Origin: Streptomyces sp. NBC_00483
GTDB taxonomy: Bacteria > Actinomycetota > Actinomycetes > Streptomycetales > Streptomycetaceae
DNA length: 64,000 nucleotides
Reading direction: 5' to 3'
NCBI RefSeq assembly: GCF_036013745.1
Contig: NZ_CP107880.1
Coordinates: 8,432,001-8,496,000 of the forward strand
Below, one piece after another: positions 8,057-22,868 of this stretch (the first letter of the stretch is position 1; each line of letters begins with the position of its first letter). The notes under the pieces were generated by a model. That model saw nothing but the letters and a program-made list of their open reading frames with translations, was not told the DNA's origin and made no database searches. Both the position numbers and the translations under genes were made by a program.

Positions 8057-9328
8057 ATGATCATCAGACAACGGCTGGCGGTGGGCCTGTGTGCTCTGTT
8101 CGCCGCCTTCGCCGTCGGCGGCCTGCCGCCCACCCAGGCGTATGCCGATGGAGCCGACGAAAGACCGGTGCCTCAGGTCGAACTCGTCCTGGACGCAAGC
8201 GGATCCATGCGCGCCCGCGACATCGACGGCGGCTCCAGGATGGCCGCGGCGAAGCAGGCGTTCAACGAGGTGCTCGACGCGACGCCCGACGAGGTGGAGC
8301 TCGGGATCAGGACGCTCGGGGCCAACTACCCTGGAGACGACCGGAAGACGGGCTGCAAGGACACCGAGCGGCTCTACCCGGTTGGCCCGTTGGACCGTAC
8401 CGAGGCCAAGACGGCCGTGGCCACGCTTCAGCCCACCGGTTGGACGCCGATCGGTCCCGCCCTGCTCAAGTCCGCCGACGACTTCACGTCCGGCGCCGGC
8501 GCCAAGCGCATCGTCCTCATCAGCGACGGCGAGGACACCTGTCAGCCGCTCGACCCGTGCGAGGTGGCCCGCGAGATCGCCGCCAAGGGCATCGGTCTGA
8601 CCATCGACACTCTCGGGCTTGTCGCCGACGTGAAGACGCGTGAGCAGCTGTCCTGCATTGCGGACGCGACCGGCGGCACCTACACCGCCGTGCACCACAA
8701 GAATCAACTTTCCGACAAGGTGGGACAGTTGGTCGACCGGGCGGCCGATCCGGTGACCACACCCGTGGCTGTCGACGGCGCCGCGCAGTGCGCCGACGCG
8801 CCGCAGCTCAAGGCCGGCCTCTACACCGACCGTGAGAAGTTCGGCGAGCATCGCTTCTACCGCGTCGACGTCGAACCGGGACAGGAGTTGCGCGCCTCGG
8901 TGAGCGTTGCGGCCGACCGTGCGGTCAACCAGGACTACGGTGTGCTGCTGCGCGCACTCACCACGAACGGCCGGGAGATCGTGCGCGGGCAGGAGGCGGG
9001 TGACGGGCGCACCGACGTCCTCTCGACAGGCTTGCGTTACCCGAAGCCCGAGCGCGACGACGACACGGACGAGACACGGGCGGAGTCGGTCTGCCTCCAG
9101 GTCTCGCACTCCTTCTCCGCGCCCGCCTCGGTGAAGACGACACCCGGCCTGCCGGTCGAGCTGACGGTCGACCTGGTGGACGGCCCGGACCAGGCGTCCG
9201 ACGTGGCCGCGTTCGGGCTCGGCAACGGCTGGTGGCTACTGGCCGCCCTGGTCGTGGTCGGCTTCCTCGCAGGTGTGATCTGGGGCTGGCTCTCGCGCTG
9301 GCGTGTCGCTGTTTGGAGGACGAACTGA
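8057..9328 (+). CDS. Secreted, C-terminally anchored von Willebrand factor A domain protein
   Basis: The 423-residue product starts with a signal peptide (MIIRQRLAVGLCALFAAFAV, cleavage near AYA-D at about residue 30). The VWA domain follows, with its MIDAS motif DASGS (Asp46, Ser48, Ser50) and a later ISDGEDT loop. A beta-rich region covers about 235-385. The protein ends with one transmembrane helix (WWLLAALVVVGFLAGVIWGW) and a short cytoplasmic tail, so the VWA domain faces outside. Its stop overlaps the next start (TGATG), forming a two-gene unit. VWA domains bind ligands through a metal. The partner and ligand are unknown. Confidence 0.88.
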   Translation: MIIRQRLAVGLCALFAAFAVGGLPPTQAYADGADERPVPQVELVLDASGSMRARDIDGGSRMAAAKQAFNEVLDATPDEVELGIRTLGANYPGDDRKTGCKDTERLYPVGPLDRTEAKTAVATLQPTGWTPIGPALLKSADDFTSGAGAKRIVLISDGEDTCQPLDPCEVAREIAAKGIGLTIDTLGLVADVKTREQLSCIADATGGTYTAVHHKNQLSDKVGQLVDRAADPVTTPVAVDGAAQCADAPQLKAGLYTDREKFGEHRFYRVDVEPGQELRASVSVAADRAVNQDYGVLLRALTTNGREIVRGQEAGDGRTDVLSTGLRYPKPERDDDTDETRAESVCLQVSHSFSAPASVKTTPGLPVELTVDLVDGPDQASDVAAFGLGNGWWLLAALVVVGFLAGVIWGWLSRWRVAVWRTN

Positions 9329-10212: not shown

Positions 10213-13200
10213 TTACGCCTTGCGCAGTCGCAGCGTCACGATCTCGAAGGGACGGAGCGTGAGCTCGATCGGCTCGTCCTGCTCCCACCAACGTACCTGT
10301 ACCGCACCGTTGTCGAGGCTCGCAGAGTCGCGCTCCAGGAGGTCGGTCGTCCAGGCGCGTGCGACGGCCTCCGACACGTCGACACGGGTGGTCGCCCGTC
10401 CGCCTCGTGCTTCGTAGAGACGCACGACGAGGTCGCCGGATCGGTCCTCGGCCAGCTTGACGGCCTCGACGACGACCGCGGGCGAGGTCACCGATACCAG
10501 AGGCGCCACCGCGCCCGCGCCGGTCACCGTGCGTACCGGGAGGTTCATCCGGTAGCCGGTGTCGAGGGCTTCGAGGACGGTGGGGGCCGGCCGCACTGCG
10601 GTGCGCAGCACATGGGTGCCCTGGTCGGCCTGCGGGTCAGGGAAGCGGGGTGCGCGCAGCAGCGACTGCCGTACGAGGGTGACGGTCGAGCCATCGGCGG
10701 CCCAGCGGCGGGTGATGTCGTGCCCGTACGTCGAGTCGTTGGCGACGGCCACGCCGAAGTCGGGTTCGCCGACGTGCACCCAGCGGTGGGCAGATGTCTC
10801 GAAGCGGGCCGCGTCCCAGGAGGTGTTGGAGTGCGTGGGGCGCTGCACGTGCCCGAACTGCACCTCGGACGAGGCGCGGTCGGCGTGCACGGCGAACGGG
10901 AAGGCCAGCTTGAGGAGCTTTTCCTGCTCCTTCCAGTCGACACGGGTTTCCAGTTCCAACTCGCGTGCGTGCGCCGCCAGTTGGAAGATCTGGGTGAACG
11001 TCGAGTTCTGGAAGGAGCGCCGTACGACGAGGCCTTCGGCGGTCGGCTCGACGGCGTCGGCCTCGCGCAGATCGGTGATGTTGTGGCGGTAGTGGACGTC
11101 GACGTCCCAGGCGTCCCACTGGTTGGGGGTGTCGCGGCAGACCTGGAGCAGCGCGGCGGCCTCCCCCTCGGCGATCAGTTCACGTCCGCAGGAGAGGTCG
11201 ACGAGGGAGACGAGCAGGCCTGCCGTGTCGAAGGCGGCTCGGACGATGCCGTTGTCGAGGACCCAGCCGTCTTCCCCGACCGTGGGTGCGGTCCAGGCCG
11301 GGGCGCCGCCGGGAGCGGCGCCGAGCGCGGGGGCTCCGGCGGCGGCGACCGGCGCACCGTTGAAGACGACGGGGGTCTCGCCCGGGCCGGCGAGCGTCCG
11401 CTGCGCCTGTTCGATGACACCGTCCAGCGTCCGTGCCAGGGCCGCGTAGTCGCGTTCCGCCTCCTGGTACACCCAGGCGATCGAGGAGCCGGGCAGGATG
11501 TCGTGGAACTGCAGGAGCAGGACGGTCCGCCAGATCTCGTCGAGCGACTCGTAGGGGTAGTCGGCGAGGCCGCGCCACGCGGCGGTGGCGCTCCACAGTT
11601 CGGCCTCGCGCAGCAGGTGCTCGCTGCGGCGGTTTCCCTGCTTCGTCCTCGCCTGCGAGGTGTACGTGCCGCGGTGCAGTTCGAGGTACATCTCGCCGGA
11701 CCAGGTGGCGGGCGCGGGATGGGTCTTCTTGGCGAGTTCGAAGAAGTGGCGGGGGGTGTCGACCTCGACGCGCGGCGAGCCCTCCAGGGACCGGGTGCGG
11801 GCGGCGGCCTCCATCATCTCGCGGGTGGGGCCGCCGCCTCCGTCGCCGAAGCCGAACGGGACGAGCGAGACGTTGGACAGCCCCTTCTCGGCGTACTGCC
11901 GCTCGGCGCGCGCCAGTTCGGCGCCGGAGAGCTCGGAGTTGTAGGTGTCGGCGGGCGGGAAGTGCGTGAAGATGCGGGTGCCGTCGATGCCCTCCCACCA
12001 GAACGTGTGGTGGGGCATCCTGTTGGTGTCGTTCCAGGAGATCTTCTGCGTGAGGAACGCGTCGGCGCCCGCCGCTCGGGCGATCTGCGGCAGCGCCGCG
12101 CTGTAGCCGAAGGAGTCGGGCAGCCACACGTCCTGGGGCTCGAAGCCGAACTCGCGCTGGAAGAAGCCCTTGCCCTGGACGAACTGGCGGGCGAGCGCCT
12201 CGCCGCCGGGCAGGTTGGTGTCGGACTCGACCCACATGCCGCCCACGGGGACGAAGCGGCCCTCGGCGACCCGCGCGCGGGTCCGTTCGAACAGCTCCGG
12301 GTAGTGCTCCTTGACCCACGCGTACTGCTGGGCGCTGGAGCAGGCGAACACGAACTCCGGATTCTCGTCCATGAGGGCGAGCACGTTGGAGAAGGTGCGG
12401 GCGCACTTGCGGATGGTCTCGCGGGTCGGCCACAGCCAGGCCGAGTCGATGTGCGCGTGGCCGACGGCGACGACCCGGTGGGCGCTCGCGCTCGCAGGTG
12501 CGGCGAGAACCGCGGCGAGCGTCTCGCATCCGGCGGTCGCGGTCTCGGCGACGCGGTCGGGATCCACGACGTCGCACATCCGCTCCAGAGCGCGCAGGAT
12601 CTCCGCGCGGCGCGGCAGCGACGCCTCCAGCTCGCTCATCAGGCCGACCAGGGTCCACACGTCGCGCAGCAGGGCGTCGACGGTGAGGTCCCGTTCGACG
12701 AGGTCGACCCGGCGCAGCGTGTAGATCGGGTCGTTGCCGGCGGTCTTCTTGTCGCCCAGCGGAGTCGGCAGGTAGAAGTGGTGGCCGCCGACATCGGGGT
12801 TGGAGGCGCCCTCGATGTACAGGTCGACAGGTCCCGGGCCGACGGGGATCGCGTTGTTGAGCGGTTCGAGGCCCTTGGCGATGGTGCCGTCCGGGCGGTA
12901 GACGAGGCCCTCGGCCTGGAAGCCCGGCTGGCGGTCCGAGAAGCCGAGGTCGACGACGAGCTCCAGAGCGAGGCCGGGCCCGCCCCAGTCGGCGGGGATG
13001 TCGCCGGTGACGTGGAACCAGGTGGTGCCCCACGGCCTGCTCCACGGTGTACCGGGTGTGATCGGCGCGTACTCCTGCTTGACGGCCTCGGCGAAGGGGA
13101 CGGGCTCGTCGGGCACGTCCCACGCCGTCACGTCGAGAGCGAGGTGTCGGCGTTCCAGGGCCGGGGCGATGCGCTCACGGACGAAGCGCTCGACGCGCGA

Positions 13201-13227
13201 CTCGATCTGCGCGGTGCTGTCGTGCAT
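10213..13227 (-). CDS. GH38 alpha-mannosidase (Ams1/MAN2C1-like)
   Basis: The ATG at 13227 has a GGAGAG ribosome-binding site 3 bp upstream. The product is 1004 residues. It begins with the N-terminal beta-domain typical of cytosolic Ams1/MAN2C1-type enzymes (WGTTWFHVTGDIPADW about 66-81). The GH38 catalytic barrel follows, with GHAHIDSAWLW (256-266, zinc ligands His257 and Asp261) and WLPDSFGYS with nucleophile Asp371. A large beta-sandwich C-terminal domain ends in LRPFEIVTLRL. There is no signal peptide, so it acts inside the cell on imported oligosaccharides. It is the last gene of the ABC-permease-sulfatase operon, 46 bp after the sulfatase stop. Predicted reaction: exo-hydrolysis of alpha-mannosides. 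Confidence 0.93.
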   Translation of the reverse strand: MHDSTAQIESRVERFVRERIAPALERRHLALDVTAWDVPDEPVPFAEAVKQEYAPITPGTPWSRPWGTTWFHVTGDIPADWGGPGLALELVVDLGFSDRQPGFQAEGLVYRPDGTIAKGLEPLNNAIPVGPGPVDLYIEGASNPDVGGHHFYLPTPLGDKKTAGNDPIYTLRRVDLVERDLTVDALLRDVWTLVGLMSELEASLPRRAEILRALERMCDVVDPDRVAETATAGCETLAAVLAAPASASAHRVVAVGHAHIDSAWLWPTRETIRKCARTFSNVLALMDENPEFVFACSSAQQYAWVKEHYPELFERTRARVAEGRFVPVGGMWVESDTNLPGGEALARQFVQGKGFFQREFGFEPQDVWLPDSFGYSAALPQIARAAGADAFLTQKISWNDTNRMPHHTFWWEGIDGTRIFTHFPPADTYNSELSGAELARAERQYAEKGLSNVSLVPFGFGDGGGGPTREMMEAAARTRSLEGSPRVEVDTPRHFFELAKKTHPAPATWSGEMYLELHRGTYTSQARTKQGNRRSEHLLREAELWSATAAWRGLADYPYESLDEIWRTVLLLQFHDILPGSSIAWVYQEAERDYAALARTLDGVIEQAQRTLAGPGETPVVFNGAPVAAAGAPALGAAPGGAPAWTAPTVGEDGWVLDNGIVRAAFDTAGLLVSLVDLSCGRELIAEGEAAALLQVCRDTPNQWDAWDVDVHYRHNITDLREADAVEPTAEGLVVRRSFQNSTFTQIFQLAAHARELELETRVDWKEQEKLLKLAFPFAVHADRASSEVQFGHVQRPTHSNTSWDAARFETSAHRWVHVGEPDFGVAVANDSTYGHDITRRWAADGSTVTLVRQSLLRAPRFPDPQADQGTHVLRTAVRPAPTVLEALDTGYRMNLPVRTVTGAGAVAPLVSVTSPAVVVEAVKLAEDRSGDLVVRLYEARGGRATTRVDVSEAVARAWTTDLLERDSASLDNGAVQVRWWEQDEPIELTLRPFEIVTLRLRKA

Positions 13228-13273
13228 CAACTCTCCATAAGAAGAAGGCTGTTGGACGCGTGCGGGAGGGTGG

Positions 13274-14593
13274 CTACACCGTGGCGGCGGCCGCGCGGCT
13301 CCAGTCGGCGCAGCGCTTGCCCCACCGCTCGACCTCCGCGCGCATCTCCTCGAAGCGTTCGGGGTGGGTGGGCGCCAGGTTGTGCTCCTCAGCGGGGTCG
13401 GCGTCGAGGTCATAGAGGCCTTCGGCCACGGCGACGGCCTCCTCCATGCTTTCGCAGCCGTTCAGGACGGCCTTCCAACGCCCCAGGCGACCGGAGAGCT
13501 GACCCTCGTACTTCCAGAAGTGCCAGCGGTCGGGTCCGGCCTCGCCCGCCGCCAGTTCGGCGAGCACCGAGCGGCCGTCGAGGTTCTCGTCGATCGGCTG
13601 TGTGCCGTCGACGGCTTCGAGGACGGTGGGCAGCACGTCGGACATGCAGCCGACGACGGCGCCGTCGCCGCCCGACGGGAGGCCGGCGGGCCAGGAGATG
13701 ATCGTGGGTACGCGGACGCCGCCCTCGAACAGCGAGCCCTTGTGGCCGCGCAGACCGCCGGCCGAACCGCCGTCGTAGGAGATCTCCTCGCCGTCGAGCC
13801 AGTTGCGCTCCTCGATGGAGGGGCCGTTGTCGGAGGAGAAGAGAACGAGTGTGTTCTCGCGCAGCCCCAGGCGGTCCAGGGTGGCGAGGATTCCGGCGAT
13901 CGCGTCGTCCATGGCCTTCACCATGGCGGCCATCATCTGCCGCCCGGCCGGCAGGTGCGCGAACTGGGCCACGTACTCCGCGGGGGCGTGCATCGGATAG
14001 TGCGGTGCGTTGAACGGGACGTAGCAGAGGAAGGGGTTCTCCGCGTTGCGCTCGATGAAGTCGGCGGCGCGGTGACCGATCACCGTGGTGAGGTACTCGC
14101 CGTTGTACCAGACCTCGTCCTCGCCCTCCCACAGGTCGTGCAGGGGGTTGTGATCGCCCCAGTAATAGATGTGGGAGTAGTAGTCGACGCAGCCGGCGAG
14201 GAATCCGAAGTGTTCGTCGAATCCCCGCTTGAGGGGCCCGTACTCGGGGTCGACGCCGAGGTGCCACTTGCCGAATATCCCGGTCGCGTAGCCGCGCCCT
14301 CGCAACTCGCTCGCGAGGGTGGGCTGGTCGGGCAGGCCGACGGTGCGCCGGGTGCCGCCGAGGATCGCCTCGACTCCGGCGTGCGCGGGGTGGCGCCCGG
14401 TGAGCAGGGAGGCCCGGGACGGAGAGCAGACAGGGGAGTTCACGTACCACTGCGGCAGGCGCACGCCGGAGGCGGCGAGACCGTCGAGGGCGGGTGTGTC
14501 GAAGTCGTCGGCGCCGAAGCAGCCGAGGTCTCCCCAGCCAAGGTCGTCGGCGTAGATGACGACGACGTTCGGGCGGTCGGTCGGTGTTGTCAT
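13274..14593 (-). CDS. Cytoplasmic Cys-type sulfatase
   Basis: The 439-residue protein begins MTTPTDRPNVVVIYADDLGW (metal-binding Asp16 and Asp17). It contains the formylglycine-forming signature CSPSRASLLTGR with Cys56, later GKWHLG and FSSDNGPS (metal ligands), and LRGHKGSLFEGGVRVP. This is a complete type I (S1) sulfatase that needs a formylglycine-generating enzyme, not seen in the window. No signal peptide is present, which is unusual for bacterial sulfatases and implies action on imported substrate. Its ATG overlaps the permease stop by 4 bp (ATGA). The neighbouring GH38 gene suggests that it desulfates mannosides before or after glycosidic cleavage. Confidence 0.92.
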   Translation of the reverse strand: MTTPTDRPNVVVIYADDLGWGDLGCFGADDFDTPALDGLAASGVRLPQWYVNSPVCSPSRASLLTGRHPAHAGVEAILGGTRRTVGLPDQPTLASELRGRGYATGIFGKWHLGVDPEYGPLKRGFDEHFGFLAGCVDYYSHIYYWGDHNPLHDLWEGEDEVWYNGEYLTTVIGHRAADFIERNAENPFLCYVPFNAPHYPMHAPAEYVAQFAHLPAGRQMMAAMVKAMDDAIAGILATLDRLGLRENTLVLFSSDNGPSIEERNWLDGEEISYDGGSAGGLRGHKGSLFEGGVRVPTIISWPAGLPSGGDGAVVGCMSDVLPTVLEAVDGTQPIDENLDGRSVLAELAAGEAGPDRWHFWKYEGQLSGRLGRWKAVLNGCESMEEAVAVAEGLYDLDADPAEEHNLAPTHPERFEEMRAEVERWGKRCADWSRAAAATV

Positions 14594-15495
14594 TCCTTGA
14601 CGCTCCCAGCAGCCATTCCGGCGACGAGTCGTTTCTGTGCGAAGGAAAAGAGCACGATGGTCGGGACCGTGGCCACTGTGGCGGCAGCCATGATCATTCC
14701 CCAGTCGCTGGCGTACTCCCCGAAGAACGAGGAGAGCCCGACCTGGACGGTCTTGTGGTCGTTGCTTGTCATCAGCACGCTGGAGAAGAAGTACTCCTCC
14801 CATGTCGCGATGAACGTGGTGATGACCACGGTGGAAATGCCGGGCAGCGCGACCGGCACGATGACCCGGAAGATGACGCCGACTGTCGAGCAGCCGTCGA
14901 TGCGTGCCGCCTCGTCCAGGGCGAGCGGGATGGTGTTGAAGTAGCTCAGCGTCAGATAGATCGCGAGCGGCAGTGTCATCGCGACGTAGACGAGGGTCAG
15001 ACCCACGTACGAGTCCAGTAGGCCGAGCTCGCCGAGCGCGATGTACATCGGCGTGATCAGCACGACGAAGGGCAGGAGCTGCGTCGCGAGGACCACCATC
15101 AGGATCGAGCCGCGCAGCCGGAAGCGGTAGCGGGACAGCCCGTACGCGGCGAGGCAGGCGAGCACCACGGTGCAGGCGGTGCTCGCGACGGAGACCAGGA
15201 GGCTGTTCGCGAGGTAGCGGCCGAAGTCGGAGTCGGCGAACAACCGCTGGTAGGCGCCGAAGCCCAGGCCGTGCAGGTACTCGCCGATCGGCACCTTCGC
15301 GGCGAGCGCCGTCGAGGGCCGCAGGGAGGTGAACACCATCCACAGCACCGGAAAGACGATCACCAGCAGGATCGCGAGGGTCGGAACGACCACCAGCAGG
15401 TCGCGGGCCCGGCGGCCCGAGGCGCGGGGGCGGACGGCCGCTCGGCCGGAGGCGCCGGCCGTCGTGGTCGGCCGTGTCGTGACGTCGGTGGTCAT
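14590..15495 (-). CDS. Carbohydrate ABC transporter permease (MalG type)
   Basis: The 301-residue membrane protein has about six hydrophobic helices (from LLVVVPTLAILLVIVFPVLW onward). The cytoplasmic EAA loop is DEAARIDGCSTVGVIFRVIVP, which contacts the ATPase. The start ATG 15495 overlaps the stop of the upstream permease (ATGA), and its stop overlaps the sulfatase start. As in most actinobacterial sugar importers, no ATPase gene is in the operon, so a shared MsiK-type ATPase elsewhere is expected. Open frame upstream of 15495 is a shadow of the neighbouring permease. Confidence 0.92.
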   Translation of the reverse strand: MTTDVTTRPTTTAGASGRAAVRPRASGRRARDLLVVVPTLAILLVIVFPVLWMVFTSLRPSTALAAKVPIGEYLHGLGFGAYQRLFADSDFGRYLANSLLVSVASTACTVVLACLAAYGLSRYRFRLRGSILMVVLATQLLPFVVLITPMYIALGELGLLDSYVGLTLVYVAMTLPLAIYLTLSYFNTIPLALDEAARIDGCSTVGVIFRVIVPVALPGISTVVITTFIATWEEYFFSSVLMTSNDHKTVQVGLSSFFGEYASDWGMIMAAATVATVPTIVLFSFAQKRLVAGMAAGSVKE

Positions 15496-16415
15496 GCGGA
15501 CCGCCCCTCTCGTTCTCCGGTCATCCGCAGGTACACCATCGCGAACAGAGCCATCACCAAGGTCATGACGATGCCGATCGCGGCACCCTCCCCGAGATGA
15601 TTGGAGACGAACGCCGCCGAATACAGGCGGGTGGCGAGGACCTGGGTGTACGTACCGGGGCCTCCGGCGGTGGAGAGCCACACGTAGACGAAGTTGTTGA
15701 ACGTCTGGATCACGGTCATCAGGACGACGATCACCATGACGGGGCGCAGGCCGGGCAGGGTGATGTACCGGAAGGACTGGAAGCGGCCCGCCGAGTCGAG
15801 GGCGGCGGCCTCGTACCGCTCTTTGGGTATGGACTGCAGGCCCGCCATCAACACGACGATGACAAAGGGCAGTTCGCGCCAGATGATGATGGTGGCCACG
15901 GCCCACCACGCCGTGCTCGTCTGCGCGAGGAACGCCTCGCCGTGCGGCAGGATGTGCAGGGCGACCAGGAACTGGTTGAGGACCCCGGTGTCCGCGTCGA
16001 AGATCCACTTCCAGCAGGCCACCGCCACCACGGGCGGCACCATCCAGGGGACCAGGACGAGGGTGCGGCTCAGGCCCCGCATTCGCCAGCGCTCCAGGAC
16101 CGGGCTCTGCAACAGCAGGGCGAGTCCCAGGCCGATCGCGAGCCGGGCCACCACGGTGACGACGGTCAACCAGACGACCGTGTTGAACGTGGCGGAACCG
16201 GTCTCCGGATCCTGGAAGAGCTTCACGAAGTTGTGGAAGCCCACCCACTTGGCATCGCTCGGCAGGTCGTAGGGGGTCAGTTTCTGGAAGGCCAGCACCA
16301 CGTTGTAGATGCCGGGGAAGAGGAAGAGGACGCCGATGACAATGAGCGCCGGGAGCGTCAGCGCGTAGGGGAGGCGGTTGGCCGAACGGGGAGCGTCGGT
16401 CTTACGGGAAGCCAT
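15492..16415 (-). CDS. Carbohydrate ABC transporter permease (MalF type)
   Basis: The 307-residue protein has about six transmembrane helices, starting with LPALIVIGVLFLFPGIYNVV. Its EAA motif is YEAAALDSAGRFQSFRYITLPG. It pairs with the MalG-type permease, with a 4-bp stop/start overlap, to form the membrane channel. The gene begins 7 bp after the binding-protein stop, so the operon is tightly coupled. The substrate is predicted from context: a mannose-containing, possibly sulfated oligosaccharide. Confidence 0.92.
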   Translation of the reverse strand: MASRKTDAPRSANRLPYALTLPALIVIGVLFLFPGIYNVVLAFQKLTPYDLPSDAKWVGFHNFVKLFQDPETGSATFNTVVWLTVVTVVARLAIGLGLALLLQSPVLERWRMRGLSRTLVLVPWMVPPVVAVACWKWIFDADTGVLNQFLVALHILPHGEAFLAQTSTAWWAVATIIIWRELPFVIVVLMAGLQSIPKERYEAAALDSAGRFQSFRYITLPGLRPVMVIVVLMTVIQTFNNFVYVWLSTAGGPGTYTQVLATRLYSAAFVSNHLGEGAAIGIVMTLVMALFAMVYLRMTGEREGRSA

Positions 16416-16422
16416 CGGGCGC

Positions 16423-17709
16423 TCAGTCCTCCAGTGCCTGGTCGAGGCCGTCGAGGATCGTGCCCGCCGCGTCCTCGCTGGATCGCTGGCCGGAGTAGAC
16501 GGCCGAGAAGTTCTGGTCCACCACCTCCTGGAACGAGGTGATCGTCGCGCCCGACCCCAGATAGCGTCCGAACGAGCGGGCGTGCGGCAGCTGGTCGGTG
16601 TAGGCCTTCTGCGACGCCGGTACGTCCACGGTCTCGAGCGTCGTCTTCGACGCCGGGAGCTGGTCGTAGGTCTTGAACGTCGTGGCGCTCATCAGGTACT
16701 TGACCACCTTCCACGCCGCGCCGGGGTGCGCGGTGTTGCGGTTGATCCCGAGCGCGCGGCCGCCGAGGTGCGTGGCGCCGGTCTTCAGCCCCTCGGGCAT
16801 CACGGCGGCCCTCAGCTCCGTGCCCGATTTCTTGGCCTGCTGCCGCAGGGGTGCGAACGTGGACGGCGGCAGATAGCTCATCGCGCAGCTGCCGCGGGCG
16901 AGGCCGTTGACGATGGTGGGGTCGCTGTAGTCCTGCACCGCCTTGTTGCCGGCGGGGGTGGCGCCGGAGCGGAACAGGCCGGCGAAGTAGTCGATCGTGC
17001 GCGTCAGTTGGCGACGCGAGACGCCGGTTGTCCAGTTGCCGTCCGCGTCCTTCTTCACGAGCGTGCTGCCGTGCGACCAGAGGAAGTAGTTGATGGCGAA
17101 CCACTGGGCGCTCGTGACGGACCCCGAGCCGGGGAAGCAGAACCCCTTGGTCGCGCCGGAGCCGTGTGCGCTGATCCGTTTGGCGTCGGCGGCCAACTCC
17201 TCCCACGTCGTGGGCGGGTGGGTGATGCCGGCGTCGGCGAGCGCCTTCGGGTTATGGACCAGGGCCATGGTGTCCGCGGTCCAGGGCATGGCCCAGGTCT
17301 TGCCCTCGAATCGGGTCGCGTCCGTGGCGAGGAGGCCGCTCGCGCCGGCCGGCGGATCCTTGTCGAGGTAGGAGTCCAGCGGCAGCAGGATCCTCGGCCT
17401 GGCCAGGAACTGGACGTCGCTGTAGCCGATCTGGTCGATGTCGGGGCCCGAGCCCGAGTTGGCCTCGCGTGCGAACTGCTGCACGTTGTTCGGGCTGAGC
17501 GTCTCCAACTCGACCTGGATGTGCGGGTGGCGCTCGTTCCAGGTGTGGATCGCGGCGGCGAGTCCCTTGGTCTCGCTCTCCGGGTCGAACTGCCGCAGCA
17601 CCAGTTTCACCGGGCCGGAACCCGAGTCCGACCCGGAGCCCGAGCAGGCAGTGAGCGGGGCGACGAGGCAGAGCGCCAGGGCGGCCAGCGTCGGTTTCGG
17701 CAGTTTCAT
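16423..17709 (-). CDS. Sugar ABC transporter substrate-binding lipoprotein
   Basis: The 428-residue product starts MKLPKPTLAALALCLVAPL, followed by the lipobox LTAC with Cys22. The mature part is a cluster-B (MalE-like) binding protein with typical segments (VQQFAREANSGSGPDIDQIG, WAMPWTADTMALVHN, YLMSATTFKTYDQLPASK). It is anchored on the outer face of the membrane and delivers sugar to the two permeases downstream. It is the first gene of the operon, and its promoter faces the divergent ROK regulator. A GAGAGG-type ribosome-binding site lies just upstream of the ATG. Confidence 0.93.
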   Translation of the reverse strand: MKLPKPTLAALALCLVAPLTACSGSGSDSGSGPVKLVLRQFDPESETKGLAAAIHTWNERHPHIQVELETLSPNNVQQFAREANSGSGPDIDQIGYSDVQFLARPRILLPLDSYLDKDPPAGASGLLATDATRFEGKTWAMPWTADTMALVHNPKALADAGITHPPTTWEELAADAKRISAHGSGATKGFCFPGSGSVTSAQWFAINYFLWSHGSTLVKKDADGNWTTGVSRRQLTRTIDYFAGLFRSGATPAGNKAVQDYSDPTIVNGLARGSCAMSYLPPSTFAPLRQQAKKSGTELRAAVMPEGLKTGATHLGGRALGINRNTAHPGAAWKVVKYLMSATTFKTYDQLPASKTTLETVDVPASQKAYTDQLPHARSFGRYLGSGATITSFQEVVDQNFSAVYSGQRSSEDAAGTILDGLDQALED

Positions 17710-17760
17710 GATGCCTCTCCCTTGAAGATCATCACTGCGCGGCGGATGCTGGAAGCTAAC

Positions 17761-17778
17761 ACAATCAATTTGATTTGT
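17761..17778. promoter_or_regulatory. AT-rich inverted repeat, candidate ROK operator
   Basis: ACAATCAATTTGATTTGT contains AATCA-ATT-TGATT symmetry in an AT-rich island within otherwise GC-rich DNA. It lies 52 bp upstream of the binding-protein start and upstream of the divergent ROK gene. ROK repressors bind AT-rich palindromes. The assignment is by position. Confidence 0.5.
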
Positions 17779-17895
17779 ACGAGCCCCAGTTGGTGCTTCC
17801 CGCCCCGACCTGCTGGTTTCTCATCTAGGATCTGGCGCACCCCGCGCACCGTTGCGGATCAAGGATGTTCGGCCCCCGTGGAGGTGCAGATCAGG

Positions 17896-19113
17896 ATGGA
17901 ACGACGTGGCTCCAACCTTCCGCGCGTCGGCGACTACAACCAGCTGCTCGTGCTGGACCTGGTGCGGCGCGGCGCGTGCATCAGTCGCGTCGAACTCACG
18001 CGGCGCACCGGCCTGTCGGGGCAGACCGTCTCCAACATCTGTGCGCGGCTCGTCGGCGCCGGACTCATCGAGCCCGCGGGGCGCACGGAGGTCGAGACCG
18101 GGGCGCGCAGGACGATGTTCAGGGTGGTGCCCGGCGGCCGGTACTCCGTCGGCCTGCACATCGACCCGGCCCGGATGACGGCGGTCCTGCTGAACCTTGC
18201 CGGAGAGGTGGTGGACCGGGCCTCCATCGCCACCCCGACCACGGACGGCCCCGAGGATGCGCTGGACGCGATCGTCGACGCCGTCGACGACCTCGCGCGC
18301 CGCAACCGGGTCCCACGCCAGCGCCTTTCGGGCCTCGGTGTCTCAACCCCCGGTCCAGTCCTGGCCGATGCTGTCGTCGGGCCGCCCAACCTGCGGGGCT
18401 GGGGCGTGGTGCGCCTGCGCGAGGAACTGGAGCGACGCACCGGCCTCCCCGTCGTGTTGGAGAAGGACACCATCGCCGCGGCCACGGGTGAACTCTGGGC
18501 GGGCGGCGGCGCGTTCACTGACTTCGCCTTCGTCTACCTGGGCACCGGAATCGGCGCGGGCGTCGTTCTGGACGGCGAGGTGAAACGCGGCTCCTCCAAC
18601 AACCTCGGCGAGATCGGCCACCTCAGCGGCGACCCCGACGGCCCGCGATGTTCCTGCGGCGGCCGCGGCTGCATCGCGCTCACTTGCGCGCCGGCCCATT
18701 TGGTCGCGGCCGCCGTCGATCTCGGCGCACTCGCCCCTGTCGATCTCCAGGACCATCTCGGCGTAGAGACCGCACTCACTCGACTCTGCGCGCTCGCCGA
18801 CGCCGGTGACGCGAATTGCACAGCCATCGTCGAACGGTCGGCGCGAGCCATCGGCCGCGCGGCGGGCCAGCTCGCGAACGTCCTGGATCTCGCCACGGTC
18901 GTGCTCGGCGGACCCAACTGGTCTGCCCTGTCCGCCATTTACCTCAGGGTGGTCCCTCCCATCGCCGCGTCCTTGCTGACGGTCGGCAACGTCCACGGTG
19001 TCCAGGTGTGCGGCACGACGCTGGGCGAGGACGGCGGGGCGATCGGGGCGGCGTCTCTGGTGATGTCGTCGATGGCCTCCGCACGGTCGGAGCGGTTGTT
19101 TCTTCCTGGGTGA
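17896..19113 (+). CDS. ROK-family transcriptional regulator
   Basis: This regulator is 405 residues from ATG 17896 (in-frame GTGs at 17878 and 17884 are alternatives). The N-terminal winged helix spans about 12-70 (ISRVELTRRTGLSGQTVSNI). The ROK sugar-kinase-like domain contains EKDTIAAATGELW, YLGTGIGAGVVLDGE and the zinc site CSCGGRGC. ROK repressors are released by a sugar or sugar phosphate. Divergence from the binding-protein gene makes it the evident local regulator of the sulfatase/mannosidase operon. It does not look like a kinase, because the HTH domain is complete. Confidence 0.92.
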   Translation: MERRGSNLPRVGDYNQLLVLDLVRRGACISRVELTRRTGLSGQTVSNICARLVGAGLIEPAGRTEVETGARRTMFRVVPGGRYSVGLHIDPARMTAVLLNLAGEVVDRASIATPTTDGPEDALDAIVDAVDDLARRNRVPRQRLSGLGVSTPGPVLADAVVGPPNLRGWGVVRLREELERRTGLPVVLEKDTIAAATGELWAGGGAFTDFAFVYLGTGIGAGVVLDGEVKRGSSNNLGEIGHLSGDPDGPRCSCGGRGCIALTCAPAHLVAAAVDLGALAPVDLQDHLGVETALTRLCALADAGDANCTAIVERSARAIGRAAGQLANVLDLATVVLGGPNWSALSAIYLRVVPPIAASLLTVGNVHGVQVCGTTLGEDGGAIGAASLVMSSMASARSERLFLPG

Positions 19114-19643: not shown

Positions 19644-22127
19644 CTAGGCGATCACCAGGGAAGTGGGCTCGTTGCTCAAGCCCAGGGGTGTGGTTGCCGA
19701 GACCGTGTTGGTCGTCGTGTCCACGCGGATGATCGTGCTGGACGTGTTGTTGGCGACCCATATGTCGGTGCCGTCGCCGATGATGCCGGTGGGTATGTGG
19801 CCGACCGTGAGGGTGCCGGTCACGGTCGGGCGGGACGTGTCGATGATCGACAGGGTGTCGTCGTTGGCGTTGGTGACGTACGCGTGCGAGCCGTCGCCGG
19901 TGAAGGCCACGTTCCACGGGGCGAGGCCGGTGGTGATGCGTTTGGTGACCCTGCCGGTGGCGGTGTCCACCACGGCTACCCGGTTGTCCATCGGCAGGGT
20001 GACGTAGCAGAACCTGCCGTCGGGGCTCAGCGTGGCGCCGCGGGCGCGGGACAGCTCGCGCAGGACGGTCAGCCGATGGCCGTCCGCCGCGTCCAGCACG
20101 TACAGGCCGTTGCTGCAGGGAACGTACAGACGGGAGCCGTCGGGTGACACCGCGACCGTGTACGGGGCCTCACCGGCCTGGTACGTGGCGGTCACCGTGT
20201 CGGTCGCGACGTCGATCACCGAGATGTCCCGCGAGCCGCCGGAGCCGGTGTCCGGGCCGGTGTCGGCCACGTATACGCGGGTGCCGTCCGGCGAGGCGGC
20301 GAGACCGTGCGGGTACACACCCACGGTGATCTTCTTCGTGATCTTGTTCGTGGACCGGTCGACCACCGCGACCGTGTTCGTGCCGGAGTTCGCCACGTAC
20401 ACCTTGCCCGCGGCGGCCGTGATGCCGTACGGGTTGGTGAACCCCTTGACCGCGGCGATCAGGGTGCCGGACGACCGGTCGAGGATCGCGAGTCCGCCGC
20501 CGAGCGACGCGACATACACGGCGGGCGTGGTCGTGTCCGCCGCGGCGTCCAGGTGGCTTTGGCTGGACACCGCCTCCATGATGCCGGGGAAGTTGGTGCC
20601 CTTGCCGCGGTCGGGATAGTCGTCGCGGGCGCTGGTGCGCACCTCGTCCAGGCGGCTGGGCGAGTCGCGCAGGGCGCCGCCCCGGCGCCTGCCCGGGTTC
20701 TTCTGGGACGGCATGGGGGACGGTGACTGCTGCTGGTGCGGCGGCGTCTGGCCGGTGCCGGGAAGGGTCGGCGCGGGCAGGTTCCCGGCCTCGTACTCCG
20801 CCAGCCAGAACGACGGCAGCGTAGGCGGCATGGGCGGGAACCGCTTGTTCACCTTCATGCCGAGCGCGGACGTCAGGTCGCCGAAGGTCTCGCGCCGCCA
20901 GTCCGTGATGTTGGCCGCGCGCACGCCGGTGACCTGTTCCAGGAACTGCAGGACGGACGTGTGGTCGAACGCCTCGCTCGCCACGTGCCCGCCGCGCGTC
21001 CACGGTGAAACGATCGTGCAGGGCACCCGGAAGCCGCCGCCGATGGGCAGCCCACCCACGAACTCGTGCGGCGTGCCGGCCGGCGGCGTGGGCGGCGGCA
21101 CATGGTCGAACAGCCCGTCGTTCTCGTCGTAGTTGATGATGAAGACGGTCTTGGAGAACAGGTTCGGGTCGGACGCGACGGCCTCGAGCTTGCGCGCCAC
21201 GAAGTCCGCCGCGGCGGCCGGGAGATACGCCGGGTGGGAGGACTGTTCCGACGTCGGGATGATCCACGAGACGGCGGGCAGCCGGCCGCGCTTGACGTCG
21301 TACTCGAACTGATCCGCCGGGCCGATCCGCATGCCCCGCGTGTGCAGCGGCGAGCCGGGTCTGGCGTCCTGGAACGTCTGGAAGAACTCCAGCGGGTTGC
21401 AGCCGTAGTCGTCCTCGTCCTGGTAGACGCGCCAGCTCACCCCCGCCTCCTCCAACTGCTCGGGGTAGGACTTCCAGCGGTACGGCTGCGGCACGGTGTT
21501 GTTGATGATCGGGCCGCCCGCCGTGCCGTCCGGATCGATGGTGCCGGACATGAGGTAGAGGCGGTTGGGCCAGGTGGGGCCCATGAGCGAGCAGAAGTAG
21601 CCGTCGCACAAGGTGAACGCGTGGGCCAGTGCGTAGTCGAAGGGTATGTCCTGCCATTCGTAGTAGCCCATGGTGTACGGCCCGACCGCGTCGCCATCGG
21701 CTCGCCGGTGAGCGGGCAGCCAGTTGTCCATCTTGCCGTTGTTCCAGGCCTCGTGCTGCACGGACCAGGCGTGGCTGGTGGAGGGGATGGCCTGGGCGCT
21801 CGTACGGTGCGTGTCCAGGTGCCAGGGCAGCAGGTAACCATCCGGATTCTTCGGATCCGGTTGATAGAAAACGGACTTGCCGTCAGGGAGTCTCAGCGCC
21901 TGCGGGTCGTCGAATCCGCGGACCCCGGCCAGCGAGCCGAAGTAGTGGTCGAACGAGCGGTTCTCCAGCGTCAGGATGACCACGTGCTCGATGTCGCCCA
22001 GGGAACCGGGCTTGCCGGTCGCGGCTGCCGCCGCTTGCAGATTGGGCGGCAGGTACGAGGCGATGAGCGTGCCGGCGGCGGTGCCTGCCAGGGACCCGAG
22101 CAGTCGACGGCGTGTGATCTCGGGCAT
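19644..22127 (-). CDS. Tat-exported phospholipase C/phosphoesterase fused to a YVTN beta-propeller
   Basis: ATG 22127 begins a Tat signal (RRRLLG, residues 6-11, then a hydrophobic stretch to about 37). Residues 45-440 are a bacterial phospholipase C/acid phosphatase domain of the phosphoesterase family. Its motifs are LTLENRSFDHYFG (53-65), SHAWSVQHEAWN, TWPNRLYLMSG, YDENDGLFDHV and PWTRGGHVASEAFDH. A Pro/Gln/Ser-rich linker follows, then about 285 residues of repeated blades (VYVANSGTNTVAVVDRSTNK, VYVADTG, SHAYVTNANDDTLSIID) forming a seven-bladed YVTN propeller. At 827 residues it is far longer than plain PlcC (about 500). It is secreted folded and probably binds a surface or cofactor through the propeller. 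It is monocistronic. Confidence 0.9.
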   Translation of the reverse strand: MPEITRRRLLGSLAGTAAGTLIASYLPPNLQAAAAATGKPGSLGDIEHVVILTLENRSFDHYFGSLAGVRGFDDPQALRLPDGKSVFYQPDPKNPDGYLLPWHLDTHRTSAQAIPSTSHAWSVQHEAWNNGKMDNWLPAHRRADGDAVGPYTMGYYEWQDIPFDYALAHAFTLCDGYFCSLMGPTWPNRLYLMSGTIDPDGTAGGPIINNTVPQPYRWKSYPEQLEEAGVSWRVYQDEDDYGCNPLEFFQTFQDARPGSPLHTRGMRIGPADQFEYDVKRGRLPAVSWIIPTSEQSSHPAYLPAAAADFVARKLEAVASDPNLFSKTVFIINYDENDGLFDHVPPPTPPAGTPHEFVGGLPIGGGFRVPCTIVSPWTRGGHVASEAFDHTSVLQFLEQVTGVRAANITDWRRETFGDLTSALGMKVNKRFPPMPPTLPSFWLAEYEAGNLPAPTLPGTGQTPPHQQQSPSPMPSQKNPGRRRGGALRDSPSRLDEVRTSARDDYPDRGKGTNFPGIMEAVSSQSHLDAAADTTTPAVYVASLGGGLAILDRSSGTLIAAVKGFTNPYGITAAAGKVYVANSGTNTVAVVDRSTNKITKKITVGVYPHGLAASPDGTRVYVADTGPDTGSGGSRDISVIDVATDTVTATYQAGEAPYTVAVSPDGSRLYVPCSNGLYVLDAADGHRLTVLRELSRARGATLSPDGRFCYVTLPMDNRVAVVDTATGRVTKRITTGLAPWNVAFTGDGSHAYVTNANDDTLSIIDTSRPTVTGTLTVGHIPTGIIGDGTDIWVANNTSSTIIRVDTTTNTVSATTPLGLSNEPTSLVIA

Positions 22128-22868
22128 GGGTGAGACCTTTCTGGCACGACAGTCGGGACGCGTTTCCCCGAGCGGACAGCAGGACTTTCGATTACTCGGC
22201 CGCATGCGGATGCCTGACCTGCTCCGGTCCGCGGCTGCGGTGACGTGGGGAACGAGAGATGACTTCGATGACCATTACACGGATGTGCCGCGAGGGGCAG
22301 TTGCGTGATCGGACTTTGCGGGCTTTTTGCGCACAGGCTGAGGGCCTGTCACCTCGTGTTGTATGCGGGTCGCGGGAGTGGCCGTAACGTGCCGTTCCGG
22401 TAGGGGACTTGACGGGGCGCTCCTCTGCGGCGGCGTCGCGGCCGCTCGCGTTCTGCGACCGCTGCGGCGTCGATCGGAGTCATCCACTCCGGGCTCCGGC
22501 CCCCTTTACTCGGGTGTACGGGTTCTAGCTGATCCGGGGGTTTGCTCCGGCACCGGGATGGTGCCTGCATAGATGAACGGCCCCGGGCGTGAGCGTCACG
22601 TCGACGTGAAGGAAGAATCCTGAGGCGCGTGCGACTGAACTTGCCTCACGGTGAGGGAAGTTGCCAGGATCGGGGCCAGGGTTCGGGCATCGGGGGAGGG
22701 GCGGCGATCGTGCGTGCGTGCGTGGGTGGTCAGGGCAGGGCGGCAGGGCGGCAGGGCGAGCGCGAGGCGGAGGCTCTGGAGCAGGGGTTGGCGATCGCCG
22801 GCTGGCAGGGAGTGCCGGATCTTTCCTCGTGTGCCGGACGCGGTGACGTCCGTCGTCTTGTGCAGCGT
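22128..22868. other. Gene-free stretch left of IS copy at 22869
   Basis: No credible coding sequence, RNA gene or extended repeat was recognised. A short hairpin (ACAGGC-TGAGG-GCCTGT) lies near 22334. The stretch upstream of the phospholipase should contain its promoter, but no convincing -35/-10 pair stands out. Confidence 0.5.

Follow-up and report, generated by a model that had tools for sequence, protein, structure and literature searches.

Import-first use of complex glycans is known for N-glycans and for sulfated glycosaminoglycan (GAG) disaccharides (PMC10154615, PMC5430744). In Bifidobacterium longum, an operon for high-mannose N-glycans encodes three enzymes of glycoside hydrolase family 38 (GH38) and one of GH125, and demannosylation takes place inside the cell after import (PMC10154615). 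The Smon0120-0127 cluster of Streptobacillus moniliformis couples import of sulfated GAG disaccharides, through a solute-binding protein (SBP) and an ATP-binding cassette (ABC) transporter, to a sulfatase and a glycoside hydrolase predicted to be cytoplasmic (PMC5430744). The bacterial breakdown of sulfated mannose, as described in the available text, is marine and extracellular or periplasmic; the Polaribacter polysaccharide utilization locus (PUL) for sulfated alpha-1,3-mannan comprises S1_51, GH195, GH92 and S1_11 enzymes acting outside the cell or in the periplasm (PMC13063451). Here we analyse a 64,000-nucleotide stretch of the Streptomyces sp. NBC_00483 genome (contig NZ_CP107880.1, positions 8,432,001 to 8,496,000; hereafter the window), in which five genes of known families facing a ROK regulator probably form a catabolic operon for the import-first use of a sulfated alpha-mannoside, with the sulfatase and the alpha-mannosidase both predicted to be intracellular.

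The five genes lie on the minus strand and are transcribed in the order SBP, permease A, permease B, sulfatase and GH38. They form a single tight operon, with successive spacings of a 7 bp gap, a 4 bp overlap, a second 4 bp overlap (ATGA) and a 46 bp gap, and the ROK gene on the plus strand diverges from them, starting at 17878. When the gene limits were read again, the order, coordinates, overlaps, gaps and facing regulator given by the first-pass annotation all held. The features, in window positions, are:

16423 to 17709, minus strand: solute-binding lipoprotein, CUT1-like oligosaccharide binder (Pfam SBP_bac_1, 121 bits; lipobox LTAC by eye)
15492 to 16415, minus strand: ABC permease A (Pfam BPD_transp_1, 61 bits; order conserved in relatives)
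14590 to 15495, minus strand: ABC permease B (Pfam BPD_transp_1, 64 bits; order conserved in relatives)
13274 to 14593, minus strand: Cys-type S1 sulfatase, 439 aa, cytoplasmic by eye (Sulfatase PF00884, 196 bits against a cut-off of 25; CSPSR at residues 56-60)
10213 to 13227, minus strand: predicted GH38 alpha-mannosidase, 1004 aa, cytoplasmic by eye (GH38N, 328 bits, with middle and C-terminal domains)
17878 to 19113, plus strand: ROK-family regulator, GTG start with ATG 17897 as the alternative (Pfam ROK, 149 bits, and MarR_2)
17763 to 17775, no strand assigned: operator-like palindrome AATCAAATTGATT, in minus-strand reading, in the ROK/SBP intergenic region

The GH38 start is taken as the ATG at 13227, which fits the spacing; the longest GH38 reading frame begins at 13413, within the sulfatase gene. 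Both hydrolases have hydrophilic N termini (MHDSTAQIES... and MTTPTDRPNV...) in which no export signal is apparent by eye, in agreement with the earlier statement that neither carries a signal peptide. An SBP_bac_1 protein together with two BPD_transp_1 permeases fits a CUT1-type sugar importer. No ABC ATPase is encoded inside the operon, and MalK-type OB domain matches elsewhere in the genome, at 5397775 and 6765014, mark candidate ATPases whose partnership with this importer is only putative.

The operon resembles that of B. longum in its predicted import followed by intracellular demannosylation and in the subgroup to which its GH38 belongs (766 bits to 7ufr), whereas it has a single GH38, a sulfatase and its own operator-like site, and lacks a GH125; the available part of the review on the B. 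longum operon makes no mention of a sulfatase (PMC10154615). The Streptobacillus cluster is similar in its SBP/ABC import of sulfated sugars and its predicted cytoplasmic sulfatase and glycoside hydrolase, but it handles GAG disaccharides with a GH88 enzyme in a fusobacterium, and the portion of that report at hand does not mention GH38 (PMC5430744). In the Polaribacter PUL, sulfatases are likewise paired with an alpha-mannosidase, there on sulfated mannose; that system, as presented in the available text, belongs to marine Bacteroidota and employs GH92 and GH195 outside the cytoplasm, while the window operon has a GH38, no GH92 and hydrolases that by eye are unsignalled (PMC13063451). A compact import-first version of sulfated-glycan use in a soil actinomycete had been put forward as new in the first-pass annotation. 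The part of the Streptobacillus report available to us already provides a precedent (PMC5430744), and novelty, if there is any, would be confined to actinomycetes, for which no description of a sulfatase-GH38 import-first combination under private control was found in a partial library of the literature.

The earlier proposal had been made to depend on conservation of the gene order. Public genomes were scanned with the sulfatase family, and of 460 relatives the best 80 were retained; the six-gene layout occurs in 6 of these 80 loci (L017, L018, L019, L022, L025 and L031), a recurrence that rules out a non-conserved gene order. One of them, L017 from Streptomyces sp. NBC_01016, is a near-copy whose operon is 99% identical to that of the window. 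Because the same order is found in other actinomycete families, the arrangement is more than chance. A homologous SBP-permease-permease set adjoins the sulfatase in 16 of the 80 loci (in L052 with an extra gene in between), and a GH38 lies nearby in 9 of these 16. Within up to 10 kb on either side, some of the available stretches being short, 26 of 80 loci have a GH38 in the vicinity of the sulfatase (Actinomycetota 21/39, Bacillota 5/24, others 0/17), compared with a random expectation of about 1% per locus derived from the four GH38 matches in the genome itself, a crude baseline for loci that are not independent by descent. In L028, L030 and L033 the GH38 is situated beyond the ROK gene, on the ROK strand.

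Related sulfatases also occur in other gene settings. Loci of the Jiangella type (L032 and L034) combine a ROK gene, a distantly related ABC set, a GH38, a GH2 or GH2-like gene (Pfam-supported in L032 only) and the sulfatase. Seven Microbacterium loci bring the sulfatase together with a GH20, a second sulfatase, a LacI-type gene and a GH38, and four Paenibacillus loci (L063, L070, L077 and L083) with a GH38 of a different subgroup, a GH125, a second sulfatase and a GH42-like protein. Among the glycosidase partners found for this sulfatase clade, alpha-mannosidases are the commonest, and it is mainly for this reason that a sulfated alpha-mannoside is favoured as the substrate.

The sulfatase retains the residues expected of its class. 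Positions D16, D17, C56, P58, R60, K109, H111, H198, D255 and N256 are invariant in 77 of 77 aligned loci and K285 is kept in 76, with the conservation of stretches 52-60 and 193-200 arising partly by construction, as both served as retrieval patterns. We take these residues to be metal-binding or catalytic, with C56, P58 and R60 belonging to the C-x-P-x-R formylglycine motif. On the substrate side, 11 of 20 checked positions in the loop at 133-155 and 5 of 7 in that at 261-273 are invariant, the checked positions beyond the retrieval patterns having been picked largely from already conserved ones. With regard to a possible placement in S1 subfamily 19, the closest solved sulfatase, the kappa-carrageenan enzyme PsS1_19B, is 37% identical but differs in both of these loops, which are conserved within the clade of the window sulfatase. 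A formylglycine-generating enzyme (FGE) is encoded in the same genome; it scores 356 bits to a solved FGE and has the sequence CHHSYC, which we presume to be functional in this enzyme. In the Actinoallomurus locus L018, the FGE gene is directly downstream of the ROK gene. The sulfatase itself is rare, being detected in 2 of 249 Streptomycetaceae genomes, including its own, at E values up to 1e-70, and at 1e-120 in 1 of 396 genomes of the phylum, namely its own.

The N, middle and C domains of GH38 are all detected by Pfam in the mannosidase, and the motifs GHAHIDSAW and WLPDSFGY, which we take to have their usual roles in the family, are visible by eye. Its closest solved structures are the alpha-mannosidases 7ufr-7ufu, presumably the N-glycan enzymes of B. 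longum. GH38 is common in Streptomycetaceae (188 of 249 sampled genomes), and among the matches listed from these genomes none except the operon's own exceeds 59% identity to the window enzyme, while identity to it is 65-99% for the GH38s encoded in the other six-gene loci. In a tree of 32 proteins, 13 GH38s from sulfatase loci are split off by a branch with 100/99 support from 19 others (14 from other Streptomycetaceae genomes, 2 paralogues from the same genome and 3 from Microbacterium). Judged from this grouping and these identities, the six-gene operon looks mobile between families, retaining its own GH38.

Control of the operon appears to be private. The ROK protein is 77-81% identical in L018-L022 and L025, and 99% in L017. 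The palindrome AATCAAATTGATT occurs exactly once in the 10.24 Mb genome, with one further site at one mismatch and four at two mismatches, while a reversed control pattern gives no match; the operon is thus the only exact target seen in this genome, and a wider regulon was rejected because the exact palindrome occurs just once. Six of seven distinct relative genomes scanned contain the exact palindrome, each time before this operon or the sulfatase, and the remaining one, from Arthrobacter, has it with one mismatch. Two of the seven carry one further site with one mismatch, and the control pattern has a single match, in S. olivaceus. The core TCAA[AT]TTG[AG] is present in 14 of 14 testable relatives with a divergent ROK gene, a count for which the motif was composed after the sequences had been viewed, which includes the near-copy L017, and which leaves out L032 and L034. 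It was not seen between the ROK and SBP genes in L024 and L049, where the ROK gene is on the same strand. In L028 the core falls within the 17-bp spacer separating TTGACA and TTAACT (by eye), where a repressor site is expected, so that the ROK protein is likely a repressor acting on the operon. A GDSL-lipase-like gene adjoins the ROK gene in the S. olivaceus type locus L020.

Taken together, the gene families suggest the following pathway. A short sulfated alpha-mannoside, probably an oligosaccharide, would be freed extracellularly from an N-glycan or mannan that carries sulfate, captured by the lipoprotein SBP and imported through the two permeases, powered by an ATPase encoded elsewhere. The cytoplasmic formylglycine sulfatase would then take off the sulfate, which we place on mannose itself by inference, and the GH38 alpha-mannosidase would subsequently free mannose. 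Until the inducing sugar arrives, the divergent ROK repressor would silence the operon from the single palindrome in the promoter region. Possible sources are at hand in nature: according to the available text of a review, sulfated mannose occurs in slime moulds (mannose 6-sulfate in Dictyostelium), in insects and in crustaceans, where a lobster N-glycan has mannose sulfated at position 6 (PMC7616688), and all three groups are plausible glycan sources near soil bacteria.

With respect to the earlier claim that a sulfated mannoside is imported and then hydrolysed, the parts concerning import first, cooperation of sulfatase and mannosidase, and ROK control are supported by synteny, by the 26 of 80 loci with a GH38, by the distinct group of 13 GH38s, by the common operator-like core and by the presence of FGE in every carrier genome tested. 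Several observations weigh against this interpretation. The claim is weakened where GH38 is missing, as in 7 of the 16 ABC loci (L024, L026, L035, L039, L041, L049 and L052) and in 54 of the 80 loci overall, in each case within the available stretch, some stretches being short; the S. olivaceus type loci L020 and L021 have the ROK gene, the operator-like site and the sulfatase with neither a homologous ABC set nor a GH38 in the stretch. Linkage to GH38 requires at least nine changes on the tree of the sulfatases, and has thus often been gained or lost, far from a single origin. The linked GH38s of L028, L030, L033, L032, L034 and L036 are merely 50-56% identical to that of the window, and the Microbacterium GH38s (three of seven sampled) cluster with ordinary GH38s even though their neighbours are sulfatases of this clade. 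Genome size and lineage confound the enrichment of FGE, which was found in all 20 carrier genomes tested compared with 42 of 296 in the phylum sample, the conservation of sulfatase residues is subject to the selection effects given above, and the nearest solved sulfatase acts on carrageenan. Six Chloroflexota loci (L072, L075, L076, L080, L086 and L095) adjoin a UxuA-like gene (by Pfam in L076, by tblastn in the rest), so the sulfatase clade may serve other sugars there. Finally, sulfate in Dictyostelium is often on a subterminal mannose according to the available text (PMC7616688), where an exo-acting pair would not reach it first, which complicates a simple exo order.

These points also bear on other explanations. 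The substrate could be a sulfated N-glycan fragment with its sulfate on a capping N-acetylglucosamine, fucose or galactose, uncapped by the sulfatase and other enzymes before GH38 trims the mannoses. The partners GH20 (8 of 80 loci), GH29-like (8 of 80, four of them weak at 27-28% identity) and GH2 (Jiangella type) fit sulfate on another sugar and count against sulfated mannose. Yet the window operon joins the sulfatase to GH38 alone, with no hexosaminidase, fucosidase or galactosidase among its genes by Pfam, and the four Paenibacillus loci encode a GH125 mannosidase, although next to a GH42-like protein; we regard a sulfated cap as unlikely, while giving it more weight than the alternatives that follow. 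One of these replaces the N-glycan or mannan by a small sulfated mannoside, for instance the headgroup of a glycolipid or a solute of the sulfated mannosyl-glycerate type. The operon lacks an endo-enzyme, no co-regulated depolymerase is evident since the palindrome is exact only here, and the GH38 has a match, if a weak one, to a mannosylglycerate hydrolase model (73 bits against a cut-off of 1138). That 7ufr-7ufu are the closest solved GH38s and that some relatives add GH20, GH29, GH125 or GH2 makes such a substrate improbable.

Two further explanations seem to us very improbable. Bacterial sulfatases often serve sulfur supply, and sulfate might be the goal here with mannose as a by-product; this would suit the S. 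olivaceus type loci, which retain the sulfatase without an adjoining ABC set or GH38, but it sits poorly with a sugar-type importer, a GH38 within the operon and a sugar-type regulator of the ROK family with a private operator-like site. The sulfatase fold also includes phosphodiesterases, and the enzyme might instead remove phosphate diesters from phosphomannans or methylphosphomannose N-glycans before the GH38 acts. Against such a role, its closest relatives of solved structure belong to the carbohydrate sulfatases, the PehA model for phosphoric and sulfuric ester hydrolases scores 65 bits against a cut-off of 900, and FGE adjoins the ROK gene in L018, an argument tempered in that diesterases of this fold can also use formylglycine. 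In its favour, slime mould and yeast glycoproteins bear phosphate diesters, as reported in the available parts of two papers (PMC7616688, PMC4891362).

Returning to sulfated mannose, we tentatively suggest, as a broader idea with rather less than even prospects, that the sulfatase clade, spread across several phyla, represents a terrestrial pathway for mannose-sulfate glycans such as those of soil amoebae and arthropods, packaged in actinomycetes as one privately regulated import-first operon whose GH38 is adapted to the desulfated product or requires it. If the interpretation is true, an import-first operon of this kind on land would identify enzymes that act in the soil part of the sulfated-mannose cycle, and would offer a candidate sulfatase for the analysis of sulfated N-glycans as well as a simple one-operator ROK system.

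The same genome holds a paralogous operon at 10184000-10197000 with the same architecture (ROK-SBP-permease-permease-GH38-GH130), in which GH130 takes the place of the sulfatase; its ROK is 45% and its GH38 54% identical to those of the window, and AATCAAATTGATT is absent there at up to two mismatches. Without a sulfatase, it forms a natural unsulfated comparison. A row of genes at about 10095073-10098737, for another ROK regulator, another sulfatase and the FGE, lies 3.8 kb downstream of a cluster of SBP, permease, distant GH38 and ROK kinase genes; the row and this cluster are possibly a second sulfated-glycan locus. In the window itself, a large open reading frame at 19644-22205 encodes a phosphoesterase domain (PF04185) fused to a YNCE-like beta-propeller, and the product of the gene at 8057-9328 is a VWA-domain protein in which, by eye, a signal peptide and a C-terminal membrane segment are apparent.

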